Part shown: positions 4,560 to 63,800 of the stretch, in pieces
Numbering within the stretch: position 1 is the first letter of the stretch
How the letters are laid out: each line of letters opens with the position of its first letter
Origin: Owenia fusiformis
Lineage: Eukaryota; Annelida; Polychaeta; Sabellida; Oweniidae
Direction: 5' to 3'
NCBI GenBank assembly: GCA_903813345.2
Contig: CAIIXF020000011.1
Location: forward strand, 2,318,571-2,382,570
DNA length: 64,000 nt
The notes under the pieces: generated by a model
Told to the model about the DNA's origin: nothing
Seen by the model: the letters and a program-made list of their open reading frames with translations, nothing else
Databases searched by the model: none
Position numbers and translations under genes: made by a program

Positions 4560-7500
4560 GGTATGGAGGGAACACTACCTAGATGTAAGCCATTCAAATA
4601 CACGTATGAAAAGGAAATCGTCATGTGAGTGAATACTTTTACTTTTTTTGTATTGAAGCTTTCCTTAATTTTGTGCTACTTTAGTTTGATGATTTTGCCA
4701 GTTTGTATTTGAAAGATTATCTTCCAATTTCCAAATGTAAATTTTTTACATGATTTGTAAAAAGTACTGTTTGTGGAAATGATTACAAATACTTGCAATA
4801 GAAACTCATGATTCTGTATTTCATTTTGGGTCTGAAGGAAAAATGATGATTCAAAAGTAATGGACAAAATGTTACTTTTCAATCACTCTTTATACAGGGT
4901 GTCCATAAGTCGCTTTACACTTTACAAAGACTTTGTATTGGTATTGTAAAGATACTTCATGAACACCCTGCATAATGTATTACTAGAGCTTAACTCTTCA
5001 ACATTTTTCACTTAACGTGCCATTTAACACTTTTGCCTTTAAACGGGTGTCAAATTAAGTATCTTTATGCTACTTATTTTAAAACACATCCATTATAAAA
5101 TACTACAATGTCACGCAGTAAAAATTTACAGTGCATCATAAGAGTAACATTTTTAATATAAATGCAATAAAATAAAGATTAGACTTGTATTGCATAATAT
5201 TGTATAACTATATTATATTGTGTCGTTACTTATTGTATTGACATTGTATTGAATTGTATTGTATTGTATAGTTTTACATCCTTTGTCAATATTAACTACA
5301 GTGCATATGTTTAAAATTTTAATTTTCAGGTATGCTTATTTCAAGAAGCTTGACTATTTCTCAACTGAGTGTATCTATTCTCCACTAGCATTCAGGGGCC
5401 ATGCTAGGACATACATCAAAGATCTGGAAGCCATCAGGCCTAGCTCAATCATTGGTCAGTATTAAAAAATGTTTAGACCAATCATTGGTCAGTAAAATAA
5501 ATGTTTAGTTCAATCATTGGTCAGTATTAATAAATGTTATAGTTCAATCATTGGTCAGTATTGATAAATGTTTAGTTCAATCATTGGTCAGTATTAATAA
5601 ATGTTTAGACAAATCATCGGTCAGTAAAGCAAATGTTTAGTTCAATCATTGGTCAGTATTAATAAATGTTTAGACCAAACATTGATCAGTAAAATAAATG
5701 TTTAGTTCAATCATTGGTCAGTATTAATAAATGTTTAGACCAATCATTGGTCAGTATTAATAAATGTTAAGTTCAATCATTGGTCAGTATTGATAAATGT
5801 TTAGACCAATCATTGGTCAATATTAACAAATATTTAGACCAAGCATTGGTCAGTATTAATAAATGTTTAGTTCAATCATTGGTCAGTATTAATAAATATT
5901 TAGACCAATCATTGGTCAATATTAATAAATATTTAGACCAATCATTGGTCAGTATTAATAAATGTTAAGTTCAATCATTGGTCAGTATTGATAGATGTTT
6001 AGTTCAGTCATTGGTCAGTATTGATATGATTATGCCGAGTTCAATCATTGGTCAGTATTAACATAACGCCTAGTTCAAGCATTGGCCAGTATTAATACTA
6101 TGCCTAGTTCAATCATTGGTCAACTTGTACTATGAAAGCTATACTTACAGAGGGGATGTATTGAATTATATTGAAAATGAATGTGAACAAATAAATTAAT
6201 CTGTTCCTCGGCATAATTATGATTCCCATATAGTCTGATAGTTTCTGAATGTATTTAACTCACATGAAATGGAAGGAATATCACATGAACAAGAACCCAT
6301 CTCTACTCAAGTGAGTCATCAATGTCTCATCCTTTGAATGGTCCATTTCAAGACATGTGTCATGCAAGTTTTCAATGCTAGTTTGACTGGCTTTAAAAAT
6401 AAGCCAAATGAACTTATGAGAATTTTTTGAGGGAGATATAAGGCATGGCTACGTTTTCTTCAAATTTGGTGCACTTATTAAGCATACATTGAAGAATAAC
6501 TGACATGAATTTCAGTCACATATCTTTTATATTTCTGAATCTATTGACATTTAAATTCTACATAGCCACAAACCCTGGAGTTGTCAGAGAAATAATGTAT
6601 AGTTCTATGCATATTTTAGACATATTTTATTTCCTTTACATTTATTGAAATTCAAACTGAATGTAGGTCTACTTATAATTTCAGATATAATCCACTCTGG
6701 AGAGAGTTTATCAATTAAGAAAGATGTAAAGATGCCCACCCAGGGTCTTTGTACAAGATGTCAGTATATATCAAGTCATCCTGTATGTAAAGCTTGTGTT
6801 CTCTTAGAAGGTCTCAACAAAGGTCTACCAAAACTAGGGATAGGAAAACCTCACAAGATTAGAAAGGTATGGGGTATATAAAGGGCTATGGTGGCGGTAA
6901 GATGTCAGTATATCAAGTCATCCTGTCTGTAAAGCGTGTGTTCTCTTAGAAGGCCTTAACAAAGGTCTACCAAAACTAGGGATAGGAAAACCTCACAAGA
7001 TTAGAAAGGTATGGGGTATATAAGGGGCAAAAGTGGGGGGGTGTCAGTATATACCAAGCTATCAATATCCTCAAAGCTTGTGTTCTCTTAGAAGGCCTTA
7101 ACAAAGGTCTACCAAAACTAGGCATTGGAAAACCTCACAAGATTAGAAAGGTAAGGGGTATATAAGGGGCAAGGGTGGGGGTTAGATGTCAGCTTATATT
7201 AAGTCACTATATTGATCTTGTGTTCTCATTGAGGGCCTGGAAAAGGATCTTCAAAAACTAGGGATTGGAAATTCTCACAAGATTCAGAGGTATGGGGTAT
7301 ATAAGGGGCAAGGGTGGGAGTTAGATGTCAGTTTATATTAAGTCACTATATAGATCTTGTGTTCTCTTGTCTTAACAAAGGTCTACCAAAACTAGGGATC
7401 AGAATACCTTTCAAGATTAGAAAGATATGGGGTATATAAGGGGCAAGGATGGGGGTTACACAAGTTTGTATATCATTATATACCAAGCCTCCCATCCTGC

Positions 7501-8929
7501 AAAGTTTGCGTTCTCTTAGAAGGCCTTAACAAAGGTCTACCAAAACTAGGGATAGGGAAACCTCGCAAGATTAGAAAGGTATGGGGTATATAAGGGGCAA
7601 GGATGGGGGTTACACAAGTTTGTATATCATTATATACCAAGCCTCCCATCCTGCAAAGTTTGCGTTCTCTTAGAAGGCCTTAACAAAGGTCTACCAAAAC
7701 TAGGGATAGGAAAACCTCACAAGATTAGAAAGGTATGTGGTATATAAGGGGCAAAAGTGTGTGTGGGGGGGTTGAATGTCATTATATACCATGCCATCCT
7801 GTCTGTAAAGCTTGTGTTCTCTTAGAAGGCCTTAACAAAGGTCTACCAAAACTAGGGATAGGAAAACCTCACAAGATTAGAAAGGTATGTGGTATATAAG
7901 GGGCAAAAGTGTGTGTGGGGGGGTTGAATGTCATTATATACCATGCCATCCTGTCTGTAAAGCTTGCGTTCTCTTAGAAGGCCTTAACAAAGGTCTACCA
8001 AAACTAGGGATAGGAAAACCTCACAAGATTAGAAAGGTATGTGGTATATAAGGGGCAAAAGTGTGTGTGGGGGGGTTGAATGTCATCATATACCAAGCCA
8101 CCCTGTCTGTAAAGCGTGTGTTCTCTTAGAAGGCCTTAACAAAGGTCTACCAAAACTAGGAGTTGGGAAACCTCACAAGATTAGAAAGGTTTGTGGTATA
8201 TAAGGGGCAAAAGTGGAGGGGGAATGTCAGTATATACCAAGCTATCTTGTCTGTAAAGCATGTGTTCTCTTAGAAGGCCTTAACAAAGGTCTACCAAAAC
8301 TAGGCATTGGAAAACCTCACAAGATTAGAAAGGTTTGTGGTATATAAGGGGCAATAGTGGCAGTTAGATGTCAGTTTATATTAAGTCACTATATAGATCT
8401 TGTGTTCTCTTGTCTTAACAAAGGTCTGCCAAAACTAGGGATCGGAAAACCTCACAAGATTAGAAAGGTATGGGGTATATATAAGGGGAAAGTTTGGGAG
8501 TCTGGGCAGGACTGAGTTGGATCAGTCAAATAAAATGAGTAATATTTTGTACATATGCCATGCATGCATCTGATATGTATCATATAATATTGCACTGTAT
8601 TATGTAAAGTTACAGGCTATTGTATGAATTTGTATTCTATTAGTATATGTAATCTTTTTTTTGTATTATACAGTTTATTGTGTTTCCAGCAAGCTGCAGA
8701 AGAGGAGAGCAGAAAAGCCACACAATCACAAATAGACAGTGTTGAAGGGGTCCACAATCATGATAACCCATCAGATTCAAACATTCAAGGGGCCTGCAAG
8801 TCATGTAATTGTACAAAGGCGACACTAGTGGATGGATTGGAAACTAAGAAAATGGAAGGACAAATTGAGTCAAATAAAACAAGGACTAGTATTTTAACTA
8901 ACTCTACAACAAAGGATATAGACTTTTAG
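4560..8929 (+). CDS. CTU1: Cytoplasmic tRNA 2-thiolation protein 1, C-terminal four exons
   Basis: CTU1 (Ncs6/ATPBD3) works with CTU2 to add sulfur to U34 of the cytosolic Lys, Glu and Gln tRNAs, receiving it from the URM1 pathway. I place coding exons at 4560-4624, 5330-5454, 6685-6866 and 8690-8929; their phases are continuous and give 203 residues plus TAG. Family landmarks are [42 protein letters not shown], and the zinc-binding tail CTRCQY..CKAC followed by [16 protein letters not shown]. The last exon is a lineage-specific polar tail containing CKSCNC. The N-terminal half with the PP-loop SGGKDS ATPase motif is absent between 1 and 4560, so it must lie left of the window or be lost. Both introns after 5454 and after 6866 carry tandem arrays derived from the adjoining exon edge. 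The assignment rests on recognised family sequence. Confidence 0.9.
4895..4970. mobile_element. Short MITE with CAGGGTG/CACCCTG ends, 76 bp
   Basis: It begins CAGGGTGTCCATAAGT and ends TTCATGAACACCCTG. The left flank is TA; the right flank is CATA, so the TA duplication is imperfect. It belongs to the recurrent mariner-like MITE family of this window and lies in a CTU1 intron. Confidence 0.8.
5440..6125 (+). repeat. Minisatellite built from a CTU1 exon 3' end and splice donor, about 20 units of about 33 bp
   Basis: The unit reads roughly TTCAATCATTGGTCAGTATT plus AATAAATGTTTAG. The first unit overlaps the end of the CTU1 exon at 5330-5454, where TCAATCATTG is exonic and GTCAGT is the donor. 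Most later units repeat that exon-end plus donor sequence, with point changes accumulating toward the right. Confidence 0.92.
6867..8490 (+). repeat. Tandem array of about 11 extra copies of a CTU1 exon with its donor site
   Basis: Units of about 140-155 bp repeat most of the exon at 6685-6866, from about TGTCAGTATATATCAAGTC through GTTCTCTTAGAAGGCC to CACAAGATTAGAAAG, then a GTATGG-type donor and intron sequence ending in TATATAAGGGGC. The exonic part is better conserved between units than the G-rich linker. Copies near 7211 and 7360 are degenerate. The true acceptor, upstream of 6685, is not copied; units carry only a TGTCAG that could act as a weak acceptor. Confidence 0.93.
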
Positions 8930-9950: not shown

Positions 9951-10146
9951 CAGGGTGACCCCAAAAAACACCCACTATATTTTGTCAAGTTTGGTGAACT
10001 GACTCGTTTATTGATTAATATGAGAAAAGAGATATCTCTTAATTTCCAAGTCATTGATGCTGAATATACTGATCTTTCTTCCATTAAACACTAAACATAT
10101 ATAAAGTTATTGCAAAAATTGTGGGTGGCATTTTTGGGTCACCCTG
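9951..10146. mobile_element. MITE with CAGGGTGACC/GGTCACCCTG ends, 196 bp
   Basis: The ends begin CAGGGTGACCCCAAAAA and finish with TTTTTGGGTCACCCTG, flanked by TA on both sides. The TA target and the ends fit the mariner-like MITE family. No transposase is present. Confidence 0.85.
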
Positions 10147-10773: not shown

Positions 10774-13700
10774 ATGTCGCGCCTATCGTGTATTGGTTTA
10801 CGTGTCAACATGGCGGTAAAAAAGTTTGTTTTAAAAATAAGCTTTCTTCTGGGACTTTCTGCAATCATTCGGGCAGAGGAGGCATGTTATAACTACGGAG
10901 GTGGAGATGTATATCCCCAAGAAAGTCGAGCTAGGGGTAACCATGCAATGCATTGGAGCAAAGCCCTCAGTAAGTCAAATATGTTTTTAAGAATTCAATA
11001 CTGTACTCTATTATCGCCCACAAGAAAAATTTATTTACTTTTTATTTACAAGTATGGACCTAAATCTACAGCCACTATAATTCATAATATGACCCGTTTC
11101 CTTGAGAATATTGACAGTATGAAGATGAATCAGTTTTGTATTCTAAATAGCCAAGTTTATTCAACGTATTTTAGTCTTGTTTATTGTTTCAGGAACTTCA
11201 CATGTAAGTTCAATTCCTACAATTAAATTATTTATTCTGTGAATCAGTTCATATGGTTAGAATAAGGAAAGAATGTGATGTAACCACGTGACTACTTACT
11301 AGCTTGTTCTATGTCATCCATTGGACTAGGTTACATCGTGGAACGCAGCCAAACACGACAATGTTACAACGGAACCATATGAACTGATTCACAGAATAAA
11401 AAAAATGAATGTAGATCCCTGTAGTTATCCCGTTCCCGGACTATAGTCCTGCACTGAGCGCATTCATTTGCCTGTACGATTACAACTTGGGAGAATTATC
11501 TACGCCCCTTACACTTAAGATACCTACCTCAATGCATTATAGAACTCAAGATGTAACTTCTAATATATTGGAACCGCCGATTGTCTGGGTATATCGGCAG
11601 AACGGGAACATTTCTCTTTTTCATCGAGAGAGATTCCATCACTTTTCAAAATGGCGGTTGGATTTAAAAGGGGAATCCCCCGTTTGGCTGTCCCGGATGT
11701 AGCCCGGAAGTACCAATATGGAGGAATTTGACGGTTGAAATAAGTTAAATGTTACACGCAAATTTGATATCAAAAACGAAAATGTCTTCGTTCTGCCGAT
11801 AAACCCAGACAATTGTGGATTCAACTACACGAAAAGAATGCTAAATTACCAAGGAATCTATTGAAGTAGGTATCAGAAGTGTAAGATGAGTAAAAAATTC
11901 TCCCATGTTGTAATCGCACAGGCAAAAGATTGAGATGTTCACAGGACCATAGTCCGGGAACGGGATAACCCTGTAGCCTTGAAGAAGGCTTCTCCAGTTT
12001 TTTCTCTTTCACCAGGGCACACCATTCTCCTTTCCTCTGAGTCTCCTTCTCTTCAGTAGCATGAACAAAACCACTGAGAATTGGCTTAAAAAGGGGGATG
12101 CTATCAAATATAATGCACTCCCTAATGCACACACATGATATTCATCACCATGGTGTATCTTGTTCTTTTCAGTCTCTAAACCAGCCCCTGATTGGGAAGG
12201 TACAGCTGTCGTAAATGGAGAACTGAAAGATCTGAAACTGTCAGACTACAAAGGGAAATATTTGGTTTTCTTCTTCTACCCTTTAGATTTGTAAGTACAT
12301 ATACTTTTCACTGAGCTCTATACTGTATTTTGTCAACATGGTTCTACATGTTGTTAATCGTCGTTTCAATAGTTCTGGTTGCAAACAAAGTTTCATCGCA
12401 TGGTTTGTCATTTTGTCAACATTTAAAGTCTATAGATAATACTTTGCAATTTTTATGTCACCACCAGAAGTGATGACATTGTTATAGCCTCCAACTTTTT
12501 TGTGGATGGTGTTCGGTGGTTCGGAGATCTGCGGTTGGTGTTCAGGTCTGTAACAAATGGCAGTTTATGTTAGTGCCTTGTGATTTTGTGTTTTTGAGGC
12601 TCAAAGTTTATGTCCAAGTCTTTTGATTGTGTTAGTAACTTTGACTACTGAGCATGTGTGCTGTGGCGATTGCTCATTATAAGAAAGTTCAATTTACATG
12701 TATTAGAAAAAATATATCTTAACGGAAGGAATCTTGTCGAAGAATTCAACATCTTTTATTTCAGCACATTTTTGTATTTTATTTCAGCACATTTGTGTGT
12801 CCAACAGAGATCATAGCATTTAGTGATAGAGTGGAGGAGTTTAGAGCTATCAACACAGAAGTCGTGGCTTGCTCCGTTGATTCACAATTTACTCATCTAG
12901 CATGGTAAGATTTCTTGTTGTCTCAAAAGAGTTTACAAGATAATATTTTTAGCTGAAAGTAAAAAAGTAAAAAATGATTTTCAGACAGAAACTCACACAA
13001 GCATATTATCACATAAGGATCCAAAATGTGATAACATACTTATTGTATCAATATTTTAATGTCCGTCAAAAGACGTAATTAATTTATTAAGTTCTTAACC
13101 CCCTTCAAACGAAAGTCAAAATGTTGATTCATAGCTGTTACATATTAATGATCATACCAATGCAGAAGAGGAATCTCCTGGAAACAAAAAATCAGTTTCT
13201 GTCTTAGCCTTATTAAATGGGGCTTTACCCCCTCCCTTCTAACATAATTAATTACGTTTTTGAGGGACATTGAAATATTGACCCGGCCCCTAATATGTTT
13301 CATCATTCAAAGTATTTCTCATTTTATCAGTTACTCAAGTGGGTAAATAGATTTTAAGGTAGATGCAAGCCTCTTCTTAATATCTCAAATTGGTCAAGCA
13401 CCAACTTTTTTTAATGCTAGAATTATCACTGTGTTTATATTATTAACTTGGAAAGGCCTTAATGAGAAAATCATTTGTTACTACAAGGTGGCCTTTAACT
13501 GCTTAAAACCGTCCTGGGGCTCTTATTGACTGTGATTAATGGTAACGTTAGCTGGTTAACGCTAACGTTAAAGGTAAAGTCAGCTGTAACTTGTATTAAG
13601 GGAGTGAGGTATGATCGCAAACAATTTTATAGCAAATGATGTATATCACCAAACCTATGTCGGCTTTAGTAAGTGGCTTTCCAATTCCTGCTGTCAAACT

Positions 13701-16700: not shown

Positions 16701-19700
16701 CATTTGGATCAACTAAACATGCTACAATTCAAGAAAGTGCAAGAGGCATCCCTTTGACCTTTATTTATTACAGTCCGAGAAGATCTTTCCTGACAAAATA
16801 TCCACATTATGAAACACCTTGTACGTCTTCTTATAAGTATAAGTATACGTTATAAGTTGTATTTTACGTATGTGCGAAATCTCTCTATTGGCTTGTATTG
16901 ATTTTCAAATAATGACTTCTAAAATTCAAAATATGTTTATGTCTTTGAACATGATGGGTTCTTGTTCTCACAAATGCTAAGAAAAAAAAAGATTATTCTG
17001 TTTACATGATTTCAGAACTTTATGCTACAGACAGAACTATAGCTTCACTGGCAGAGCCAGCGGGTGGGGGCATGTGGGCTGCCCCCCACCCACTTGGGTG
17101 GGTTCAGAAAAAAAATTGTAGGCCTTTTTGGGCATTACTTCGCCTTTTTGGGAAATTATCATAAAATAAACTGCATTGTCCAGAATTCCACTTGTCCTAC
17201 AATTGTAGAAGTTAAACCTCAAATACATGTAGTATAAATCATTTTATTCATTTTCTACCTCTCATTGTTTCCAAAGTACACTTTTATTTCAGTGTATTTG
17301 ACCTTTGTTTCAATGCTCATGTCTTGACCCATTGGTCTTTTTTAATCCATTTGACTTTTGTATCGATGTGCTTGACCTTTGTTTCAGTTTGCTTAACCTT
17401 TGTTTCAGTGGACTTGACCTTTGTTTAAATGCACTTGACCTTTGTTTTAATGCACTTGACCTTTATTTTAATGCACTTGACCTTTGTTTCAGTTTGCTTA
17501 ACCTTTGTTTCAGTGGACTTGACCTTTGTTTTAATGCACTTGACCTTTGTTTCAATGCATTTGACCTTTGTTACAATGTACTTGGCCTTTGTTCCAGTTT
17601 TCTTAACATTTGCTGTGCTTGATGTTTGATTCAATTTGGTTGACATTTGTTTCCATGTACTTGACCATTGTTTCAGTTAGCTTGGCCTTTTTATCGTACC
17701 TAACAAGAGGTACGATATTGTAGTCAGCTTGACGGGCGGCGGGCGGGGTCTCATTTTTCAGCTTGTCTACAGGTTTCCAGCCAAACCATTTGACAGATTC
17801 ATCTGAAATTTTCAGGAATGTTTCTACGTATCAAAGTTAAGAACTGATTAGTTTTTTGGCATTCTGGGTAAATTTTAAGGTGGCCATTTTGGATTTTCCG
17901 TCCTAAAATCTTCACTTTCAAGACTTGTCTACAGGTTTCCAGCCAAACCATTTGACGGATTCATTTGAAATTTACAGGGATGTTTCTACATATCAAAGTT
18001 AACAACTGATTAGTTTTTGGGCATTCTGGGTTAATTTTAAGGTGGCCATTTTGGATTTTCCGTCCTAAAATCTTCACTTTCAAGACTTGTCTACAGGTTT
18101 CCAGCCAAACCATTTGACGGATTCATCTGAAATTTCAGGGATGTTTCTACATATCAAAGTTAAGAACTGATTAGTTTTTGGGCATTCTGGGTAAATTTTA
18201 AGGTGGCCATTTTGGATTTTCCGTCCCAAATTCTTCACTGTCACACTGCTGTGTTTTAGGTACGATATTGTTCATTTCCACTTTTCTTGACATTTACTGT
18301 ACTTGGCATTTGTTTTAGTTTCGTTGACCTTTGTTTCCATGTTCTTGACCATTGTTTCAGTTGGCTTGACATTTGTTGCCATGTACTTGACCATTGTTTC
18401 AGTTGGTTTGACATTTGTTTCAGGATCAATACTCCAAGAACCCAGGGTGGTCTGGGACCAATGAACATACCCCTTCTGTCAGATCTCACTCATAAAATAT
18501 CTAAGGATTATGGCGTCCTATTGGAAGATGCTGGTCACACTCTCAGGTAAGTTGCATTGTGGGTAAATCCTCCTTTTTGGTATTATTATGTAAGCGCAAT
18601 GGTTTTCCATGTTTAATTTGGCTCTCATTAAATTTTTGTGGGCAAAAACCTTTTCAGGGAATTTCATGATTGATTCAGGACAATCAGCATTTTGATTTGT
18701 TTTGATTTTAAAACCCTGTTTCAATGCTTGATATTTGATTTCATAAGAATAGTAAACATAAACGCATTACATACATTTTAAAACTCTGGGTTCCAAATGA
18801 GATTCTTGGTATTCAAAAGGTAAAGATTTAAAGTGCAAAAATAATTCTCCGTTTAAGCTGAGACCATCATAAAAATTGTTTTATGTTAGTCTCAGCTTTA
18901 AGATAGATGACAATGTACTTATGCATTGATAGACCCCTGGTATATTATGAGTCACTGTTCTGTTCTTTCAGAGGGCTGTTTATCATTGATGATAAGGGTG
19001 TACTACGACAGATCACGATGAATGACCTTCCCGTGGGAAGATCAGTGGATGAGACACTACGTCTTGTGCAGGCGTTCCAGTACACAGATAGCCATGGGGA
19101 GGTTTGTCCTGCTGGCTGGAAACCTGGTCAAGATACAGTAAGTTTCGGGATGAGAGAGCACAAAGGGCAATATCTAAAAAATAAAATAATTGCAGTGTTC
19201 ACTCTAGGGCTTTTGGGGGTACAAAATAAGCCACCCATTTTCACAATCGAAGCCAATTTTTCTACTTCAAGAGCTTTAATAGACTAATACAAAAAAAGAC
19301 AAGGCATTGACATGACAAAATGTCACCACCTAAAACAATTTGGTCAATTTCTGGGAACTTCTGAGAACATGTAGATGATTTTGAAAAAAAAAATTAATCA
19401 ATTTGAAGCAAGTTGAAAAAAGACCTTTTTGACCTTGAGAAGGTCATTGAAGGTCAACGGTCAAATCTAAAGTCAGATTTGAACTTCTGAGAACTTGTAA
19501 AGTCAAATTTGAACTTCTGAAAAGATGTAGATGATTTTTAAAAAAATTTGGTCAATTTGAAGCAAGTTGAAAACAGACCTTTTTGACCTTTTTTGACCTT
19601 GAGAAGGTCATTAAAGGTCAAATGTCAAATCTAAAGTGAGATTTGAATTTCTGAGAACATGTAGATGATTTTGAAAAAAAAAGAGTCAATTTGAAGCAAG

Positions 19701-21281
19701 TTGAAAAAATACCTTTTTGCCCTTTTTGACCTTGAGAAGGTCATTGAAGGTCAAATGTCAAATCTAAAGTCATATTTGAATTTCTGAGAACATGTAGATG
19801 ATTTTGAAAAAATTTTTAGTCAATTTGAAGCAAGATGAAAAAAGACCTTTTTGACCTTTTTTGACATTGAGAAGGTCATTGAAGGTCAAATGTCAAATCT
19901 AAAGTCAGATTTGAATTTCTGAGAACGTGTAGATGGTTTTGAAAAAAAAAATAGTCAAATTGAAGCAAGTTGAAAAAAGACCTTTTTGACCTTTTTGACT
20001 TTGAGAAGGTCATTGAAGGTCAAATGTCAAATCTTAAGTCAAATCTAAAGTCAGATTTGAATTTTTGAGAACATGTAGATGATTTTGAAAAAAAATTTAG
20101 TCAATTTGAAGCAAGATGAAAAAAGACCTTTTTGACCTTTTTTGACATTGAGAAGGTCATTGAAGGTCAAGTGTCAAATCTTAAGTCAGATTTGAATTTC
20201 TGAGAACATGTAGATGATTTTGAAAAAAAAATTAGTCAAATTGAGGCAAGTTGAAAAAAGACCTTTTTGACCTTTTTTGACTTTGAGAAGGTCATTGAAG
20301 GTCAAATGTCAAATCTTAAGTCAAATCTAAAGTCAGATTTGAATTTCTGAGAACACGTAGATGATTTTGAAAAAAAATTTTAGTCAATTTGAAGCAAGTT
20401 GAAAACAGACCTTTTTGACCTTTTTTGACCTTGAGAAGGTCATTGAAGGTCAAGTGTCAAATCTTAAGTCAAATCTTAAGTCAGATTTGAATTTCTGAGA
20501 ACAAGTAGATGATTTTGAAAAAAAAATTTAGTCAATTTGAAGCAAGTTGAAAACAGACCTTTTTGACCTTGAGAAGGTCATTGAAGGTCAAATGTCAAAT
20601 CTAAAGTCAGATTTGAAGGTCAAATGTCAAATCTAAAGTCAGATTTGAATTTCTGAGAACATGTAGATGATTTTGAAAAAAAATTTAGTCAATGTGAAGC
20701 AAGTTGAAAAAAGCCCTTTTTGACCTTGAGAAGGTCATTGAAGGTCAAATGTCAAATCTAAAGTCTGATTTGAACTTGTGAGAACATGTAGATGATTTAG
20801 AAAAAAATTGAAGTCAGTCTAAACAGTATTTGTTAAGTTATAGAAAGTTGTAAGAAATTGTTACAGACGCCGGACGCCAACCTCCAACCACCAACCGCCG
20901 TCGCAAAAAAACGGAGACCATAACAATATGTCACCACTTTTGGTGGTGACATAAATATTAAGAAACAATGAATGCCCAAAATTTGAACAACAAAACCACT
21001 GAGCCTCAGTTTCAATCCATTTTGTCTTGGCTTTAAATTATTTATTGGATAGTTAAATTATTTAGATAGACCATTTTGCTTGTAATGTGTTTTGTCCAAA
21101 GGACATAATTGTATGTAAAATACATGTATTGGTATTGTTCATGTTTATTGTAATCATTGTATATAATATAATGTATTGTACATATATATGTAAAATTGTA
21201 CATGACTTGTTTTCCTTGCAGATTATTCCAAATCCTGCTGACAAACTCAAGTACTTCAACAAGAAAAACAATGAAAAGTGA
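10774..21281 (+). CDS. PRDX4: Peroxiredoxin-4, ER 2-Cys peroxidase, six exons
   Basis: PRDX4 reduces hydrogen peroxide in the secretory pathway and drives oxidative folding through protein disulfide isomerases. Exons are 10774-10969, 12173-12290, 12788-12904, 18424-18546, 18972-19137 and 21222-21281; all junctions are GT-AG, phases agree, and the product is 259 aa. A start at the next ATG (10810) would give 247 aa and still keep the hydrophobic signal peptide [19 protein letters not shown]. The extra N-terminal region typical of PRDX4 is present, including a Cys ([14 protein letters not shown]). The peroxidatic Cys is about C109 in FVCPTEI and the resolving Cys about C230 in EVCPAGW, 121 residues apart as in human PRDX4. 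The GGLG motif and a C-terminal YF motif mark the hyperoxidation-sensitive type. Intron 3 is 5.5 kb and contains a complete fucosyltransferase gene on the same strand. Three exon edges carry local sequence duplications. Confidence 0.96.
11232..11399. mobile_element. MITE with perfect 27-bp terminal inverted repeats, 168 bp
   Basis: The left end TTATTCTGTGAATCAGTTCA plus 7 nt is exactly inverted at 11373-11399. It is internally non-coding and lies in PRDX4 intron 1. Confidence 0.85.
11418..11976. mobile_element. Foldback element with long imperfect arms, about 560 bp
   Basis: The left end GTTATCCCGTTCCCGGACTA is mirrored at the right by TAGTCCGGGAACGGGATAAC with small differences. Inner matches include CGCCGATTGTCTGGG against CCCAGACAATTG, so each arm is about 200 bp or more. 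No transposase is seen. It lies in PRDX4 intron 1. Confidence 0.8.
12456..12560 (-). mobile_element. Terminal fragment of the TGTCACCACC element
   Basis: This stretch, starting TATGTCACCACCAGAAGTGA, resembles the reverse complement of the right end of the repeat-bearing element at 19321-20951 (its last ~95 bp). It is a diverged solo end in PRDX4 intron 2. Confidence 0.7.
12754..12787 (+). repeat. Duplicated splice acceptor at PRDX4 exon 3
   Basis: The segment TTTTATTTCAGCACATTT occurs twice, 23 bp apart, with AG at 12763-12764 and 12786-12787. Only the second acceptor keeps the PRDX4 frame. Confidence 0.85.
12905..14194. other. PRDX4 intron 3, left part
   Basis: Non-coding as far as I can see. 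It includes a small palindromic patch at about 13546-13570 (TAACGTTAGC and GCTAACGTTA). The right end must hold the promoter of the nested fucosyltransferase. Confidence 0.45.
14195..15946 (+). CDS. Alpha-1,3-fucosyltransferase-like (GT10), intronless, with 8-residue repeat stem
   Basis: GT10 enzymes are Golgi type II membrane proteins that transfer fucose from GDP-fucose to GlcNAc in glycans. The 583-aa ORF has a short cytosolic tail and a membrane anchor ([18 protein letters not shown]). A stem at about residues 45-237 is made of roughly 24 copies of an octapeptide such as YSKQDSNE. The catalytic domain starts near 240. Landmarks are [27 protein letters not shown], and the family signature around residue 439, [20 protein letters not shown], then VVPIVLGG and [11 protein letters not shown]. 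These cover the nucleotide-sugar binding half of the family. The stem DNA is a 24-bp minisatellite, so repeat number probably varies between individuals. The gene is complete inside PRDX4 intron 3 on the same strand; lack of introns suggests retroposition or a single-exon subfamily. Acceptor specificity cannot be read from sequence. Confidence 0.93.
   Translation: MAMIFKSKSNLIGIAVIFIIMAIMRIWIQDSINSQKYESETHFKHYSKQVSNKNSTQDWNQNPKRDSNDYLKQDLNVNSKQDSKEYSTQDAIEYSKLDSNEYSKQDSNKYSKQFSNVHSKQDSKEYSPQDASEYSKQNSNEYSKQDSKEYSKHDSNEYSKQDSNDYSKQDSKEYSKQDWIQSSKHDSNEFLKQDSNEYSKQNSKVYSPQDSNVLSKQDSNVYSKQDSNEYSPQDSNSKLIVMLYHKPKLDPEEVKEMFLECPEVKCEFSHDVAYVNKSSAVIAHKLIQDYTNHVYSLPKRSPGQLWFYFDLESPNYIGMSSKDAEYLTEERKFNATIHYSPSSLIWMSYGKYNGSHIWNYRRIYNMILDKKVDFAAKKDKLLFWAVSNCQAVSKRQNYVKILAKHIQIDIYGKCGTFVCSRNENCETEVFKKYKFYLAFENHICDDYITEKLWKALAIREVVPIVLGGVGHEKYLPPKSYIDIRDFATPADLANYLKKLDEDDELYNEYFAWRYKITPVFDFKQAKTKWPTEYFLCQVCRLIHSQDLNTTYVDFTDRNNDEKYCRNPDEYFKDMKIPLGDVKL
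14330..14906 (+). repeat. Coding 24-bp minisatellite in the fucosyltransferase stem
   Basis: Units such as TACTCAAAACAGGATTCAAA plus TGAG encode YSKQDSNE. The period is a multiple of three, so length changes keep the frame. Because of that, long open frames appear on both strands; these are shadows. Confidence 0.95.
16021..16886. mobile_element. Inverted-repeat transposon, about 866 bp, with a second MITE inside
   Basis: The left end AGAGAGATTTCGCACATA is inverted exactly at the right (TATGTGCGAAATCTCTCT); inner blocks rich in ACGTATACG also mirror each other. ATT flanks both ends and may be a 3-bp target duplication. It begins 74 bp after the fucosyltransferase stop. No transposase is seen. 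Confidence 0.8.
16602..16821. mobile_element. CAGGGTG-family MITE nested in a larger element, 220 bp
   Basis: The left end CAGGGTGTTTCATAA and right end TTATGAAACACCTTG are inverted. It lies entirely inside the element at 16021-16886, so it inserted later. Confidence 0.8.
17285..18423 (+). repeat. 21-bp-type minisatellite running up to the PRDX4 exon 4 acceptor, interrupted by an insertion
   Basis: Units like CTTGACCTTTGTTTCAATGC repeat from about 17285 to 17690 and again from about 18280 to 18423. Many units contain TTTGTTTCAG. The last unit supplies the real splice acceptor of exon 4 at 18422-18423. The array is split by the element at about 17704-18262. Confidence 0.85.
17704..18262. mobile_element. 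Insertion with three 160-bp internal repeats, bounded by GTACGATATTGT
   Basis: AGGTACGATATTGT occurs at about 17709 and again at about 18258. Between them a block starting GTCTACAGGTTTCCAGCCAA is repeated three times. The insertion separates two halves of one minisatellite. Class unknown. Confidence 0.65.
19321..20951. mobile_element. Repeat-filled element with TGTCACCACC/GGTGGTGACA ends, 1.63 kb
   Basis: Ten-bp terminal inverted repeats bound a core of about 11 tandem units of about 135-150 bp. Each unit contains GAGAACATGTAGATGATTTT, poly(A), TTTTTGACCTTGAGAAGGTC and CATTGAAGGTCAAATG. The right end forms a hairpin (ATGTCACCACTTTTGGTGGT, then GACAT). It is non-coding and lies in PRDX4 intron 5. 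A fragment of the same family sits in intron 2. Confidence 0.8.
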
Positions 21282-21340
21282 CACACTCAAACAATGAAAA
21301 GTGACACACTCAAACAATGAAAAGTGACACACTCAAACAG
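21268..21340 (+). repeat. Three tandem copies of the PRDX4 stop-codon region
   Basis: The unit ACAATGAAAAGTGACACACT plus CAA (23 bp) occurs three times. The first copy holds the last PRDX4 codons and TGA (21279-21281); the other two are in the 3' UTR. Confidence 0.92.
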
Positions 21341-46200: not shown

Positions 46201-49200
46201 TTTCAGATTCCTCCTTTACGATTGTGCAATGCATGTACGTTTATTCTTCATTGAGCCCCATCTATATTTCAGATTCCTCCTTTACGATTGTAACCCTGGT
46301 GAAGGTTTTAATTTACGCAGAGATGTCTACATTCGTATTGCGAACCTTGTGAAAAAACTCAATACAATTGAACCATGGACCCTCGTTCTGCCACCATGGG
46401 GACGATTATACCATTGGAAATCAAACGTTGAACAGATGAAGATTCCCTGGAGCCTATTTTTCGACATAGAGAGTTTAAATGCCCACATTCCAGTCATAGA
46501 GATGGAGGAATATATCTCAGTCATAGGAAAACCAGAAGTTGAAGAAATGTATTACCTACAAAGGTTTGTCATGACTTTTTTCATTTAGTGCACATGGCTA
46601 GCTTAGCCTAGCTAGCAGCTTTAGTTTAAACATTGAGGCCAACTTTTACAGAAAATGTTTTTCACAGTTCTGGACTAAAGTGGAAGTAAAGGCCCCATAG
46701 GCCTTGAAGTATCATATCTTTTTTGATATGAGATTTGCCACATATTCAAATTTGCCTTGCCTACTTTCAATGCACTCAATTGCTGGAATTACACATGGCG
46801 TTTTACAAAGCATCTTCGGTTTTAACCAGGTTTAAGAATTAGATGTAATCACGATTGCGGTTTTACAAAAGCGCTTTTCTAAAACTCCAAGAACCCTTGT
46901 CACTAGTAAACGGCATTAGTCGTTAGGGGCTTTAAGTGTACAGTGTAATACCGATCGGTTTTGTAAGACGCCTTACCTGGGTTTTTACTAGTTTTTAACA
47001 TTTGCCCTAAACGAAATATGACCTCATTTCACACTGCTATCTGACTATATCTAAATTGAAAAATGGATGATGGTCGCCAGGTCACATCGAAATCAAGTGT
47101 TATCTTCAGAGAATATGTACATATTTTTCTTTTACCTTTTTATTATGTTTTCTCATGATTAAAAAAGATAAATAAAAATTATGCAATGTCACGCGTTTTG
47201 GCAAATTATGGAAGATCAGTTTTGTCTTAGATGCAAAAAGAATACATTTACAGGAGATGTACACATACATGTATGCTGGATATTATCCATAACTACATCG
47301 TTAAAAGTGCACGAAAGGCGTTTTAGAAAAAACAGGTGTAATTCCAAAATATAATTCCTAAGACGCTTTAGAAATGTTGGTGTAATCAGAATGGCGATTT
47401 TATAAAGCGTTTTCCACTAAAACGTTTTAGCGGATTTTGTGGTGTAATTCCAGCAAATGGCTATGCCTTTGTCAGCTATAAAATCCTTCTGATTTTACAT
47501 TGTAGCAAGTAATCTCATATTACTGGTCATGCCATTCAATCTTGCTTAGCCTTGTCTCCTATCAGCCTATCTGAATATAACTTCATCCAAAGTTGCAAAC
47601 TTAAAACCAAATTAAACATTTTAATACAGGCAGCTGAGTATTATTTGCATTGGTATGTTTCCCATCACATTGATCAGATAATATAACAATTTGCTTATGG
47701 CAGTGATCTCCCCAAATCTTTTATTAGATTGCTGCAAAATTCTCATTTTCACAATTCAGACCAAAATTGATCAAAATATGCCAATTTTTCATGATTTTTC
47801 TCATTTTCAAGTGGGTGCAAATGGATTTTTGAGTGGGTGCAATCCTATTTTCAAAATCTCAGCTGGGTGCTGCGCCCACTTGCTTTAATGCTGGGGAGAT
47901 CACTGGGATCAGTAAACGTTTGCACTTGACTTAGATAAGGTCAATATATTTGATGTGATGTACACCAGGTTAGCAGTGGTATTCAAAGAAGGGAAGAAAG
48001 TCACTTATGTGTTGTTGAAACTATTGAAATTGTAAAATTGTAAACTATTGAAACTGTGAAATTGTTAACTATTGAAATTGTAAACTATTGAAATTGTAAA
48101 ATTGTCAACTGTTTATCGAAATTGTATTTCTATTGACCTGATCCCTTTCATAATATAAACTAATATGATATGTTAGTGGAATAGAAAAGGCCAAATTAAG
48201 AAAATCAGAATTCCTAATTAATGGAAGGGAAACTGTAATTTCTGAATTATTCATAAATCAAAACTATTGATTGATGGGAAAAATAATTAATTGCATCAAG
48301 ACAAATATGTGTAATACCTCAAATGGTGTTTCACTCACAGAGGTATTCTACACATAGGGTTTATTTTACAAAAGTTAATTGGTGTGCTGTTAATTGGGTT
48401 CAATAATGAACTTGAAGTCTTATGTAAGATGAGATATAAAGCGTTTTATTCCAAACACAAATATTATGACATACACATGTCCGACATCTCAGATCTAGCA
48501 ACCCCATAGGCAATTGGTTAAAACACATCACGTGGAACAAAACTAGGTCACTAAACACGTGGCCTGATAAACAAAAGATGTTGATGAGTGAATATATCAG
48601 CTAACACTACAATTGGTCACTTGTCTTTAAAGTGTTTCACTTACATATGTTTTACATATGCTTCATATGTTTTACATTTTAAATCCAAGGTATTCAGAAG
48701 GCTTTACAGTAGTTTTGCAAACAAGGAAAATCCACATGGAATTGGGTACTTGACCATTGACATAGAGAGGAATTTTTAGAACTATAAAGCTATTAATTTA
48801 TTATCACGGTTGAGATCATTAAATTATAGATAATTCCCAATTCAAATACAACCAAGATATACCAATTTACTATATAAAACAAGTCTTAATCAATTTTTCA
48901 TATTTCCAGATTTAAAGAAGGCTGGAATGGTGGCAAATGGGAAGAAAAATTGGAAAGAAGAGAATGTCTCGAGAACTGGGGATATGCACTAGGTAAATAC
49001 AAAAGTACAATAAAACATGTCTAAGTAGAACACCTTTTGAACATCTAAAAAGGTTTACACTTGAGAGGTGTTCCACTTATAGAGCTTCATTTAACATAAA
49101 GTCAGTTGGTCTTGAGAGCAGGTCAAAAGTCTGATCAGTTCTTGGAATACGTATTTCCTTTCTATGACGATAATTATCCTGATACAGTGTTTGTCAACAA

Positions 49201-55910: not shown

Positions 55911-55970
55911 TATCATTATAGTTATAGACAGTTAGCCAATACAAAAAACATTTTTAATTTTAATGTATAA

Positions 55971-56043
55971 CAGGGTGTCCATAAAGTCTCTTTACAATTG
56001 CAATACAAATTCTGTGTAATGTGTAAAGACTATGGACATCCTG
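55971..56043. mobile_element. CAGGGTG-family MITE, 73 bp
   Basis: It begins CAGGGTGTCCATAAAGTCTC and ends GACTATGGACATCCTG. It sits 60 bp from a sister copy and is clearly related to it. Confidence 0.85.
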
Positions 56044-56154
56044 TATATCCGTAATTGCAGCATTTGATCACATGACCCGCATGCCATCTATTGTGGGGCA
56101 TCTACATATATGTACACTAGGTCATGGACTCAATGAAATGATAGATATACACAA

Positions 56155-56592
56155 TTCCACTTGTTACTGTCACAAAGATCAGGGTAACCTAGACATGTTT
56201 CCACTTGTCACTGTCGCAAAGATCAGGGTAACCTAGACATGTTTCCACTTGTCACTGTCTCAAAGATCAGGGTAACCTAGACATGTTTCCACTTGTCACT
56301 GTCGCAAAGATCAGGGTAACCTAGACATGTTTCCACCTGTCACTGTCGCAAAGATCAGGGTAACCTAGACATGTTTCCACTTGTCACTGTCGCAAAGATC
56401 AGGGTAACCTAGACATGTTTCCACTTGTCACTGTCGCAGTGATCAGGGAAACCTAGAGATGTTTCCACTTGTCACTGTCGCAAAGATCAGGGTAACCTAG
56501 AAATGTTTCCACTTGTCACTGTCGCAAAGATCAGGGTAACCTAGACATGTTTCCACCTGTCACTGTCGCAAAGATCAGGGTAACCTAGACCA
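56155..56592 (-). repeat. 43-bp minisatellite copied from the CNK terminal exon, 10 units, distal block
   Basis: On the minus strand each unit contains GATCTTTGCGACAGTGACAA then GTGGAAACATGTCTAGG, nearly the last nine codons and stop of the gene at 57859. Period 43 bp. This block lies about 1.3 kb beyond the stop codon. Confidence 0.93.
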
Positions 56593-57682: not shown

Positions 57683-57858
57683 TGAGACATGTTTCCACTT
57701 GTCACTGTCGCAAAGATCAGGGTAACCTAGACATGTTTCCACTTGTCACTGTTGCAAAGATCAGGGTAACCTAGACATGGTTCCACCTGTCACTGTCGCA
57801 AAGATCAGGGTAACCTAGACATGTTTCCACTTGTCACTGTCGCAAAGATCAGGGTAAC
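57683..57858 (-). repeat. 43-bp minisatellite adjoining the CNK stop codon, 4 units plus the exon copy
   Basis: The repeat unit is continuous with the coding end. The fifth, rightmost copy is the genuine exon end with the TAG at 57859-57861. Confidence 0.93.
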
Positions 57859-60800
57859 CTAGATATGTTTCCACTTGTCACTGTCGCACAGATCAGGATA
57901 CTTCCGCTTAAACTGTTTTAATTGCTCCCTACTTATATATTTAGATGTCAATAAAGCGTCTATAGCACTCACTTTGTTCTCAGTGTCCTGAAACAGAGAA
58001 TTACCATACAATAAATATCTTACAATGAAGACCATACAATTATTTTACAATTAACATCATACAATGTACAATATGTCGATCCTTAGTCATGGTTAGTGGT
58101 CATCTATTGTACAGGGTGTTCAATAAGTATTCGTAATTTTGCCCATGACAATATTTACCATAGTAACCATAACTTTGTCAAAACAAAGTTGATTGTCAGG
58201 AAATCTTTATAGAATAAGGTCAGATATATGTTCATTATGTTGTAAAAGTTTCATGAATAAAAAAGCAAAAGAACAAACAGCAAAATCAGCGTAACAGCAA
58301 ATACTTATTGAATATTGGATTATTTTTGAGTTTGAGGATTGTACCTGGGTTTTGACTGCTTACCTAAGCTAATCAAACATCAATTATAAGATAATTAAAC
58401 ATCAATTATCATAAACACCCAAGCACAAAGTTGATTTTTCCTAGTTACACTAATTAAAATAAAAATAAAAACCATGAAAGCTGCTTTTAAAATAATTTAA
58501 GGGGATAATAGTGAAAACAAAAATACATAAAACCCAACAAACACCAACAATGTAGAAATCTGTGGGGCAGTGCCCCACCAAGTCCAGAGGCCAACTCAAC
58601 TTAGATGTTGCTTGTCCCCCATTGGTGTATGTTGGGTTAAGCTACCAGCTAAAGCGACATCTATATTTCCTACCCTTAATGTTCTTTCTAAACTCGCCAA
58701 TTTTCGACCTCTCAGCAAATCTGCACTGTTTCGAAGACCAGTTTTAGATAATCGGGTCGTAGTCGTGAGTGCACTTTTCCGCTGGGAATGCAGATCACCA
58801 CCATATATAGATTGCCCCGCTAACCGAATGTTTTTGAAAGCCGTAACCAAGTCATCTATGCTACCCATATCTACAACATTTACGGCTCATCAGTAAGAAA
58901 AAAATCCTGGTGGTCATGCTTTGAATTGCGAAATAGTGTGGAAAAGAGTGGAATCAGCAAGGAATAAAATAAACAGACATGTAGTTAATACTCTAAATTG
59001 TATAGAAATGCAATAAAATCAGACACTTCATTCAAATTTAAGAGAGAAATGAGAGGAATTAGCAAGGAATAAAGTACACCAGCATATAGCTGATACTCCA
59101 AATTGTATAGAAACGCTTGAAAATCAGGCAGTTCATTCAAATTTTAGAGAGAAATACTGTAAAAAAGCATGACCACCACAATCGTTTTCTCATGGAATCT
59201 ATTCTAATTAATGTATCAGCAACAACATCAATATTTAGATACATAAATTGTATGCCCAATCTAATAATACAAATATTTATTTTCAAAAAAAGATAATGCT
59301 TTTGATATTCCAAAAAAAAAAAATTTTGGGAAGTTTTTGCGTTCAAAATGAGAAAATTATTTCAATAAAAAAAATTGGCATAATTTTTTTAGATTGGACA
59401 TAAATTGCTTTAACATTTATAAACAACTTTTTATGTTGAACCTGCCACACAAACAAAGATGTCAAAATAATAATTTAACAAAACTTAATCCAATTCTGAC
59501 TACCTTAAGGTTATCATACAATACAATAAAGTACAATATAATACAATAATAAATAAATAACAAATAGGAAATGGTTGTTCACTTGAATCAAATACTGTTT
59601 TCTTAATTTTTTCGTGCAAATGAATGTAAAACTGATGGGCTAACAAAGAAAGTAGAATATAGCAACGTCAAAATGTGCCAAATTTGGTTGTTGATGCATC
59701 AGCACTTTTTTACTTTTTAAGCTAAACCTACTTCAAAGTTAAACCATATCTACTGATATTTGAAAATGAACAAAGCAATATGAATCGAGAAGTATGAAGT
59801 GAAAAAAAGAAAAGGTGTTTTTTAGAAGATTCGCCTTTTCAAAAAAGATCAAGATTTATTTTCAGAATTCAGACATCGAATCATTTCAGCGATATGAGTG
59901 AATGATATCTGTCTGGCAGTATTTACCTTCTGTGGTGGAAAATTTGATCCTTCAGCTTGCATCCCCAATCATGATGGATTAAGACACCCTGCCTCAATTT
60001 CGAATTTCCCGTCACAGTAACTGACTGATGTCAGACAATATTTTACAGTTAGATATTAAAATTGTCAGTGACGGTTGAACTTTTAAGCATTCCAATGATG
60101 ATTATTCCAATCCAATGTGACAACACTTGAGTGCATTATATACTAATATAATCAAAAGACTTATCGTCAAGGGGCAACAATCACAACAACACAAAAACAC
60201 AACACAACAACAATATGAATCAAAAGACATCCAACATATGTTTCTCCCAGGATATTATTTTTATTTGATACGTACCGTCGTGTTTTTCCTTCTGCTTTGT
60301 TTTCGATTTTCTCATCTGGACCACGGGTGATCCAATTTGTCCACCAGATGGCGACTTAATATGAGGACTTTGAGGAGTCGTCACTTGTGCGCTAGTTGGC
60401 GACGTGACATGGACATTTGGAAATGTTGTCACTTGCTCACTAGGGGGTGACACCGGAGATGTAATTTGAACACTAGGGGGAACTGGGGTAGTACTCTCAG
60501 GCTCGGATTCCTGACCCTCGCTGAGTTCTGAGAGAGAATGGAGACTAGACGTATCACTGATCATCTCCAACTCCTCTTCACTCTCGCTATAGTAACCAGT
60601 ATCTGGAAAAAACATTCAGAATTCAATTTAAATTATTTATTTCAATTTCTTTCATAGTCTTAATTTCTCATATGACACTAGTTGTTCTCCAAATGTTACA
60701 TTTCTCACTATTAAGATACCTATATCTGAAATGGATTATCCAGATATTGATTTGAATGTTAACTTTTCTTTTTTTATTCTTTCATAGTATAAATCATTCC

Positions 60801-63800
60801 TACTTATGTATGACCAGTTTTAGCATGTACATTATTTTTCCCAATTTTCTAAATTATCATTTTTATTAAATTCATGACAATCATTTTAATCAAATCACAA
60901 TATGTGTACTGCATAAAATACATTTAAAAATTTGCAACAGAAAATATGGCACCTCAAATTCAAATAGCCATATTGTAAATTTCCCAGTATGTAGAATACC
61001 TAATCTAATCTTGGTACCTGAGTCTACTCTTGTATCTTTAAAGAGATCCCGTTGCCCAATTTCTTTCCTGGACAATCAGTAATGTCCCATTATAATTGCT
61101 CTATATTCTTAGATATAATACTTAGACCAAATTATGAGCACAGTATCGCTAATATATTGTGAAAATCAATTGACAATCAACAGAACTACCAAGTCAAGGT
61201 AATTAATGATGAAATTCTTACTTTCAAGGTGAATATTTTTAGCAATGTCTTCTTGTTTAACAAAGCCAGCCATGGCTTGGTCTTGGACATCAAACTGTAT
61301 TGCAGCTAGGCCAAGTTTGTTCATCCATCTGTCAAAAAAGACATAAAATGTTAAAAAAAGTACATAAATAGTAAAATAGTATTAATACATAAAATATTCA
61401 TGGAATGCTTATGAATCAAATATTTAACAAAAGTGTGCTATCAAGCTATATATCAGCTAGTTATATACCCTTAGAAAGCACATAAGGTTAAAATGCTGGA
61501 CCATTGATGTCAAAAATCTCACAAAAGAGACATAAAATCTAATACTTGTAAAAATAGAACATTAGAAAGGATTAATACACAAAATATTCATAGAATGCTT
61601 CGAATGTTTAACAAAGCTGTTGAGTTCCATCAAACTATATATCTGACAGTTATATACTCTAAGAAAGCACGTATGGTTAAAATGCTGGACTGATGATGTC
61701 AAAAATCTCACAAATACTCACTTGCTCATATCATCTTGTCTCTCTGCAGCAAAACTGAATGTAGTTCCAGCATGGTGAGCTTTGAATGCACTGAAAAGTA
61801 GAATTAGATCATGAACACAGCCAGGCAGGAGGAGAGCGAGACAAACACCTCACAGAAATGTTTTCAGAAATAATCTTTCAGAAATTTTTTAACTTAAATT
61901 TTTTTGAATAAGTAGTTATTATTACTATAAACTAAATCCTTACTTCTATTTAAGACTTACTATTTTCTTTAACACTTACTATTTTTTAGATTTACTCTCT
62001 GGGGCAGGGGAAATCTTGAAACCAGGCAGACAAACTAAGCCCTGTGCTTTAATCTCCTGTAATTATCAACATATACATGTATATAAAAGATGTAAAGGGT
62101 GAAATCTTGAAACCAGGCAGACAAACTAAACCATGTGCTTTAATCTCCTGTAATTATCAACATGTACATGTATATAAGATATGTTAGGGGGTGAAATCTT
62201 GAAACAAGGGAGACAAACTAAACCATGTGCTTTAATCTCCTGTAATTAGCAACATGTACATGTATATAAGATATGTTAGGGGGTGAAATCTTGAAACCAG
62301 GCAGACAAACTAGGCCATGTGCTTTAATCTCCTGTAATTATCAACATGTACATGTATATAAGATATGTTAGGGGGTGAAATCTTGAAACAAGGGAGACAA
62401 ACTAAACCATGTGCTTTAATCTCCTGTAATTAGCAACATGTACATGTATATAAGATATGTTAGGGGGTGAAATCTTGAAACCAGGCAGACAAACTAGGCC
62501 ATGTGCTTTAATCTCCTGTAATTATCAACATGTACATGTATATAAGATATGTTAGGGGGTGAAATCTTGAAACAAGGGAGACAAACTAAACCATGTGCTT
62601 TAATCTCCTGTAATTAGCAACATGTACATGTATATAAGAGATGTAAGGGGTGAAATCTTGAAACAAGGGAGACAAACTAAACCATGTGCTTTAATCTCTT
62701 GTAATTATCAACATGTACACATGTATATAAGAGATGTAAGGGGTGAAATCTTGAAACAAGGGAGACAAACTAAACCATGTGCTTTGATCTCCTGTAATTA
62801 GCAACATGTACATGTATATAAGAGATGTAAGGGGTGAAATCTTGAAACAAGGGAGACAAACTAAACCATGTGCTTTAATCTCCTGTAATTAGCAACATGT
62901 ACATGTATATAAGAGATGTAAGGGGTGAAATCTTGAAACAAGGGAGACAAACTAAACCATGTGCTTTAATCTCTTGTAATTATCAACATGTACACATGTA
63001 TATAAGAGATGTAAGGGGTGAAATCTTGAAACAAGGGAGACAAACTAAACCATGTGCTTTGATCTCCTGTAATTAGCAACATGTACATGTATATAAGAGA
63101 TGTAAGGGGTGAAATCTTGAAACAAGGGAGACAAACTAAACCATGTGCTTTGATCTCCTGTAATTATCAACATGTACATAAGAGATGTAAGGGGTGAAAT
63201 CTTGAAACCAGGCAGACAAACTAAACCCTGTGCTTTGATCTCTTGTAATTAGCAACATGTACACATGTATATAAGAGATGTAAAGGACATGGAAATAACA
63301 TTAACACACTGGCGGATTAGGGGGGGGGCTGGGGGCCTAATAAATTCTACCTTAATAAGTTAGAATTGTTCATGAATAGCTGCTAAAATCATCTAGAAGC
63401 TAAAGGGTTAAATACTACAACTCTCACATCTCGCAGCTTAGGGTTAAAGAATGCTCTGTATCCTTACAATTGCAGCTAAAGGGTTAAAAACTGGTATACT
63501 TACATCGGGAGATTTGTAATAATACAAAGTGTTGTTTTTCAGGACGCACCAACGTTTAATCCACTTGTGCTGTAGCCCTGATACATGTTCTTTCTTCTTC
63601 CATAGCCAGCCTTGACAGTCTCCGTGTCCCAGATCTTTACATGAAATCCTTCGCCAGTCACCTTCAGAGGAGAGGAATATGAAGGCCAAGGTCAACGTTA
63701 ATCTCAAGGTCAAATGATGAAGTATGTATTAGAAATATATACTATATATGTACTATCTATTAAAATTACTTTTTGACAATAACTTACTTTTTCTCGCCTT

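Follow-up and report, generated by a model that had tools for sequence, protein, structure and literature searches.

Within a 64,000-nucleotide stretch of the genome of the annelid Owenia fusiformis (G000:C11:2318571-2382570, hereafter the window), tandem arrays sit at exon edges of four multi-exon genes, CTU1, PRDX4, POFUT2 and CNK, and most of them are built from units that contain exon bases together with a splice donor or acceptor, or the end of a coding sequence together with its stop codon. Boundary arrays of this sort, known as mirages in amphioxus, are common in this genome. The phenomenon is real, its mechanism is ordinary as far as the evidence goes, and its kind is known but little studied: mirages probably form where the founding unit of a minisatellite extends across a splice junction or stop codon, through ordinary local tandem duplication filtered by selection.

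Arrays at exon edges in the window

Exon models for CTU1, PRDX4, ARL13B, POFUT2 and CNK were assembled manually, guided by open frames and splice signals, and boundary cases were checked with Tandem Repeats Finder (TRF), against these models and by direct-repeat comparison. The window belongs to a 498-Mb genome in 525 contigs (C1 to C12 measure 32-62 Mb each), has a GC content of 30-39% along its length (~35% overall) and gave 60 TRF rows, which merged into 41 arrays with a period of at least 10. As to the gene names, ARL13B was named from matches to solved structures, POFUT2 from an O-FucT domain and sequence reading, CNK from a PH domain and sequence reading, CTU1 from sequence reading and one upstream match of a human CTU1 query, and PRDX4 from a fragment that matches peroxiredoxin-1 and -4 about equally. 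The principal arrays and the exons they adjoin, in window coordinates, are the following.

5330..5454, + strand: CTU1 exon 2, whose last 14 bases and donor form the first unit of a 33-bp array
5441..6122, + strand: 33-bp x20.5 array at the CTU1 exon 2 donor; unit of 14 exon-end bases plus the GTCAGT donor
6685..6866, + strand: CTU1 exon 3, whose last 109 bases and donor form the first unit of a 152-bp array
6758..8481, + strand: 152-bp x11.8 array at the CTU1 exon 3 donor; 109 nt of exon and 43 nt of intron per unit
12754..12798, + strand: 23-bp x2 duplication at the PRDX4 exon 3 acceptor (exon starts at 12788), seen by TRF and in the exon model
17351..18423, + strand: 21-bp repeats (also 42- and 105-bp higher order) before PRDX4 exon 4, many with TTTGTTTCAG; a 162-bp x3 block lies inside
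21266..21339, + strand: 23-bp x3.2 array that spans the stop codon of PRDX4 (TGA, 21279-21281), seen by TRF and as a direct repeat
46169..46291, + strand: duplication at the POFUT2 exon 2 acceptor (exon starts at 46273); 57 nt present twice, 91% alike, 66 bp apart
57685..57897, - strand: 44-bp x4.8 array at the end of the last CNK exon, including the TAG stop, seen by TRF and as a direct repeat
62010..63283, - strand: 92-bp x13.9 array at the CNK exon 3 acceptor; acceptor plus 47 nt of exon per unit

Most of what the original prediction had read from the letters was borne out. TRF and the exon models recovered the donor units of CTU1 exons 2 and 3, with exon bases and donor together, and the donor GT is intact in 17/19 copies of the 33-bp array. 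The acceptor units of PRDX4 exon 3, POFUT2 exon 2 and CNK exon 3 were recovered by TRF or as direct repeats; the POFUT2 pair is in frame (66 bp) with a reading frame that is open across both copies, and the real CNK exon 3 (62056-61980) is the last copy of its array. The stop-region arrays of PRDX4 and CNK likewise hold the coding end and the stop codon within the unit. The PRDX4 exon 4 array had been described as an acceptor array, and it does end exactly at that acceptor (exon 18424-18546); its units, however, hold no exon bases. The repeats in ARL13B are only neighbours of exon edges, lying 8 bp and 24 bp away without exon bases, so the wording that had placed boundary arrays in all five multi-exon genes is true of four. 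Beside their real splice sites the genes carry runs of 1 to ~20 spare donors or acceptors, and splicing presumably continues to use the site next to the exon.

We then compared this placement with chance. Thirteen of the 41 merged arrays lie at a modelled edge or stop and 28 elsewhere, the latter including a second CNK array and those parts of the PRDX4 exon 4 array that lie further upstream; large arrays also occur deep in introns (19498-20807, 49290-49950). An array end lay within 50 bp of 11/51 splice edges (null mean from circular shifts 5.5, p 0.019), and of 13/56 edges when stops were included (6.0 expected, p 0.005). Edges covered by an array showed no excess (5/51 versus 7.4 expected, p 0.82), a statistic whose null is poor, since exons are kept free of arrays by selection.

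A second and fairer test, the terminal-unit test, asked whether the terminal unit on the exon side of an array contains the junction, in comparison with arbitrary control points off exons; its idea was fixed before the first genome sample, whereas the script dates from after the TRF results for that sample were known. In the window it gave 5/51 (9.8%), compared with 3.1% for control points overall (ratio 3.1, p 0.023) and 4.6% for genic ones (ratio 2.1, p 0.09). The POFUT2 acceptor, recognised as a direct repeat, comes on top of these five edges found by TRF. All these window p-values flatter the claim, because an earlier reader had picked the window. Placement in the window is better than chance only modestly, and the earlier statement that chance placement seems unlikely was too strong for it.

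Genome sample and anatomy of the repeat units

To reach beyond the window, we sampled 146 stretches (289,063 letters, 289 kb), each an exon with its flanks, from four gene families, all of them old. Exons were located by profile searches, with kinesin and myosin as the first set and dynein and kinase as the held-out set, and their edges are not RNA-based but are the ends of profile matches, refined by a small splice matrix that was derived from window exons; 139/146 stretches yielded 391 distinct confident edges. Rows used were 86/144 for kinesin, 67/92 for myosin, 66/88 for dynein and 36/144 for kinase. Excluded were kinesin rows above 450 nt, rows with more than three stops in kinesin, myosin and dynein, low-scoring rows, the other copies of an arrayed kinesin exon and 12 copies of one myosin exon, and the excluded kinase rows include those longer than ~400 nt or from near-duplicate genes. 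A few long rows were kept (one in myosin, of 456 nt, and two in dynein, of 510 and 696 nt), and 25 rows of ABC-transporter exons lay outside the sample. The copy-level analysis covered 20 arrays, 14 of them sampled at edge cut-off 2 and 6 from the window; at locus L033 the analysis took a period of 272, which corresponds to several lengths of a 91-bp unit.

A striking array came from the kinesin profile search, which returned 18 rows at ~159 bp spacing at one locus (L026). Here one acceptor, together with the beginning of its exon, recurs in 18 exact copies, in an array of 2.8 kb that is 97% alike by TRF. In at least 13/17 spare copies an identical TAA follows shortly after the exon-derived part, and the last copy, from a reading of the letters, appears to run on in frame into unique coding sequence. 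L026 stands outside the 13 cases counted below, its sampled row being a spare copy and not the real exon. That the genuine boundary lies at one end of the array, with the spares in the intron, is built into the definition of the terminal-unit test; in L026 and CNK it is directly visible.

The ends of the units bear on how they were copied. Over 19 cases, a set that leaves out the PRDX4 exon 4 array for its lack of exon bases, the exon share of the unit ranges from 0.14 to 0.90 and is compatible with a uniform distribution (Kolmogorov-Smirnov test, p 0.11). Exon sequence in the units could be taken as a trace of copying from mRNA, cDNA or splicing intermediates followed by reinsertion at the gene, and cDNA-templated repair had been offered as a cause. 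Copying from spliced RNA or an intermediate is disfavoured because it would fix unit ends at the junction or drop the intron, and neither was observed: straddling units hold contiguous intron beside the exon part, and their ends are scattered. The two units searched against the genome were also not dispersed, the CTU1 152-bp unit giving 12 matches and the CNK 92-bp unit 14, all within their own arrays (the search skips very common words), and all 12 genome matches of the C-terminal half of CTU1 lie within this locus, making it single-copy. We consider an origin by such copying highly improbable.

Next, we examined whether the copies bear signs of selection. AG or GT is intact in 106/124 copies across the 20 arrays, close to the ~99 expected from copy identity, although no formal test was applied; periods divisible by 3 number 6/20, the chance level. 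Only one array had over 90% of its length in exon matches, whereas the density outside exons would predict 16.5. The intact sites, together with the open and in-frame POFUT2 copy, would suit a scheme in which the spare sites are functional, as alternative acceptors or donors or as splicing buffers, and are maintained by selection. Retention no better than copy identity predicts, in-frame periods at chance and the TAA shared by the L026 spare copies speak against this scheme, which we judge very unlikely.

These counts fit selection acting on the arrays themselves: arrays are rare in exon matches, their periods are in frame at chance and their spare sites behave as if drifting. Under the favoured explanation, a local process such as end-joining or replication slippage would copy a short stretch head-to-tail, at any site of a genome rich in minisatellites, and the pair would then expand and homogenise by unequal exchange or slippage. 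Selection would purge arrays inside exons, and those straddling a junction would survive if the exon-proximal copy supplies the real site, with the surviving extra copies sitting in the intron or the 3' untranslated region. Ordinary slippage retained through splice redundancy, one of the causes put forward at the outset, is accordingly the best fit to the rarity of arrays in exons and the drift-like spare AG and GT.

Two further explanations were weighed. Amphioxus mirages have been proposed as a route of intron gain (PMC3087553), and the arrays might by analogy mark the birth of new introns through tandem duplication of proto-splice sites; nothing observed marks the array-bearing introns as young, and we give this idea very little credence. 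Tandem arrays are also difficult to assemble, which could make them assembly artefacts. The copies differ in most arrays, however (mean copy identity per array 82-100%), and the 13 sampled cases are spread over eight different chromosome-sized contigs, leaving hardly any likelihood for an artefact.

Excess of arrays at exon edges

A uniform origin of duplications predicts no excess at junctions, and several results weigh against so simple a form of the favoured explanation. In the pooled terminal-unit test, 13/391 splice edges (3.3%) were positive versus 1979/147,801 intron control points (1.34%), a ratio of 2.5 (95% interval 1.2-4.4, bootstrap over loci), and kinesin and myosin gave 11/232 versus 1253/93,336 control points, a ratio of 3.5 (1.8-6.7, again by bootstrap over loci). 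Array ends numbered 1.02 per kb of intron at up to 25 bp from an edge versus 0.20-0.38 beyond 50 bp. The TRF match was 92.6% in 14 edge arrays versus 87.9% in 35 interior ones (p 0.10); simple persistence fails to explain the edge excess because edge arrays look no older. At the level of copies, AG is present in 10/18 copies of the array at L020 versus 14 expected, and seven arrays have more than one unit inside exon matches. A moderate edge excess (~2.5-fold, uncertain) is left over.

Two candidate causes of this excess were set aside: a GC preference, as array GC (34% unweighted and 37% length-weighted over 97 arrays) brackets the 35% of the loci, and a greater age of edge arrays, for the reason just given. 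Sharing of kinesin intron positions was dropped as an age test, as array-bearing positions were shared about as often as others.

An excess of this kind would be expected if duplication were promoted at junctions, through transcription-linked R-loops, polymerase pausing or breaks near edges, so that exon edges are true hot spots whose survivors are kept by selection; we regard this as possible but somewhat unlikely. In its favour, the ratio in kinesin and myosin rose to 7.8 at the strictest cut-offs (score of at least 200, edge score of at least 6), with 3.9 (1.6-10) for the pool, and array ends crowd the first 50 intron bases. Acceptors contributed 9/192 and donors 4/199 of the sampled cases. 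The spanning excess did not replicate in the held-out dynein and kinase families, where the same settings gave 2/159 versus 726/54,465 control points, a ratio of 0.94 (0-3.6); it persisted in kinesin and myosin at edge cut-offs 2, 4 and 6 and was absent in dynein and kinase at each, although the difference between the two sets is only suggestive (Fisher p 0.08). A junction-linked bias of the kind suggested in the original prediction is compatible with the excess in the pooled sample, but the held-out families alone show none.

The held-out set does lean the same way when arrays that span an edge or end within 25 bp of it are counted together, with 9/176 at cut-off 2 (ratio 2.5, p 0.012), 7/159 at cut-off 4 (ratio 2.0, p 0.065) and 5/126 at cut-off 6 (ratio 1.5, p 0.24). 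Similarly, when all arrays are taken, the first 25 intron bases hold 1.03 array ends per kb in the first set and 1.01 in the held-out set versus 0.17-0.50 beyond 50 bp. Among strong arrays (score 100 or more), edge crowding is clear in the first set only, at 0.86 per kb, whereas the held-out set gives 0.25 per kb, from one array. The window ratio of only 2.1 against genic control points also counts against hot spots, and a role of R-loops would be hypothetical. In sum, boundaries probably do carry more arrays than chance would place there, though this is not firmly established. The larger claim, that splice junctions are genome-wide hot spots of tandem duplication driven by a transcription- or splicing-linked DNA process, with mirages at thousands of edges by extrapolation and a spliceosome that tolerates long runs of identical competing sites, is in our view rather doubtful.

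Known systems and surrounding features

The closest counterparts are the mirages of amphioxus. They are boundary tandem repeats in Adh3 and the globins BflGb6 and BflGb9, at both 5' and 3' boundaries, of unstable length and reported to be without effect on regular splicing (PMC3087553), and occur also in TnC and PGBD5 (PMC3902484). The likeness extends to minisatellite-like duplications at boundaries, donors as well as acceptors, units of 10-160 bp and many copies with AG or GT (PMC3087553, PMC3902484). Owenia shows the anatomical features of amphioxus mirages, as seen in the genome sequence of one assembly. By contrast, Owenia arrays reach 2.8 kb and ~20 copies (L026 being the longest), where BflGb6 has 3 and 6. 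The host also differs, with 498 Mb in which 12 contigs are chromosome-sized; moreover, a frequency was measured here (the 13/391 sampled edges), and some of the arrays cover stop codons.

Variable internal tandem repeats at exon-intron boundaries, some of them forming introns, have been described in genes of human segmental duplications (PMC2812944); these share the minisatellite expansion at boundaries, but are recently duplicated primate genes, whereas the C-terminal half of CTU1 is single-copy. Tandem duplication that carries splice signals also underlies the Rogers 1989 model of intron gain from proto-splice sites or AGGT (cited in PMC3087553) and the intron gain by tandem genomic duplication in the RNA-dependent RNA polymerase gene of potato (PMC4974935); here, the duplications adjoin an existing intron, with no new intron shown. 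Among annelids, the earthworm metallothionein gene has introns with minisatellites and exon 4 duplications that are absent from the transcript (PMC12783039), resembling our case in its intronic minisatellites and in spare exon copies unused in mRNA, although no junction array is described in the available part of that account.

Among the open-licence papers listed in our searches, we found no mirages beyond lancelets, and within the same limits four points appear to be new: the host, an estimate of frequency, the cases at stop codons and the evidence on unit ends and splice-site drift. Outside this setting, the human 6-16 minisatellite carries multiple splice donors. A real splice site beside up to ~20 near-identical copies is a natural test of how the spliceosome chooses its sites and of how introns and exons grow. 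A host genome unlike that of lancelets, together with a frequency estimate, makes the old idea that mirages feed intron evolution testable, and an edge excess, if true genome-wide, would indicate a mutational hot spot at exon edges.

Further arrays lie close to the genes of the window. The first and last of those below were missing from the original prediction, as were short arrays near two CNK acceptors (61334-61376, 58016-58065).

4492..4550, + strand: 20-bp x3 array (TRF) that stops 9 bp short of the acceptor of the first modelled CTU1 exon
31510..31604, + strand: 18-bp array, 8 bp past an ARL13B donor (31501/31502); the unit is free of exon bases
32470..32538, + strand: 15-bp array that stops 24 bp short of an ARL13B exon (32563); the unit is free of exon bases
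56155..56590, - strand: second array of the CNK 44-bp stop unit, x9.9, ~1.1 kb further downstream with other sequence between
61949..61985, - strand: 19-bp x1.9 duplication across the donor of CNK exon 3

CNK exon 3 thus has arrays on both sides, at its acceptor and at its donor.

Upstream, the human CTU1 query gave one N-terminal match, at G000:C11:2316939-2317055, 1.5 kb before the window and on the same strand, and the gene probably continues in that direction; a search with the Pfam ATP_bind_3 profile gave no match. A Toll-like receptor gene with TIR and leucine-rich repeat (LRR) domains occupies window positions 75-2345, and LRR-like remnants were read from the sequence at 3579-4500. This receptor gene is probably nested in a CTU1 intron, because it lies between the upstream CTU1 match and the C-terminal exons, on the same strand. 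PRDX4 likewise hosts a nested gene in one of its introns, a single-exon glycosyltransferase family 10 (fucosyltransferase) gene at 14162-15943; within its coding sequence, a 24-bp x21 array (14382-14895) specifies a repeating stretch similar to SKQDSNEY. The array at 19498-20807, deep in PRDX4 intron 5 and away from exon edges, is a 135-bp x8 array whose units contain GACCTTTTTTGACCTTGAGAAGGTCATTGAAGGTC. A reverse transcriptase open frame (PF00078) lies on the minus strand at 24883-26739 of the window.

Among the sampled loci, L063 (G000:C9:5823499-5824893) is a myosin exon with a 32-bp x19 array at its acceptor, the unit of which has 13 exon bases; on its other side, a 26-bp x19 array starts ~9 bp past the modelled donor. 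Twelve rows at G000:C9:37986009-37994334 match one myosin-head exon (profile positions ~18-84) at irregular spacing, a cluster that looks like a set of mutually exclusive alternative exons. Three copies of one dynein AAA_6 exon (profile positions ~57-160) at G000:C9:7082562-7087388 are possibly alternative exons as well.

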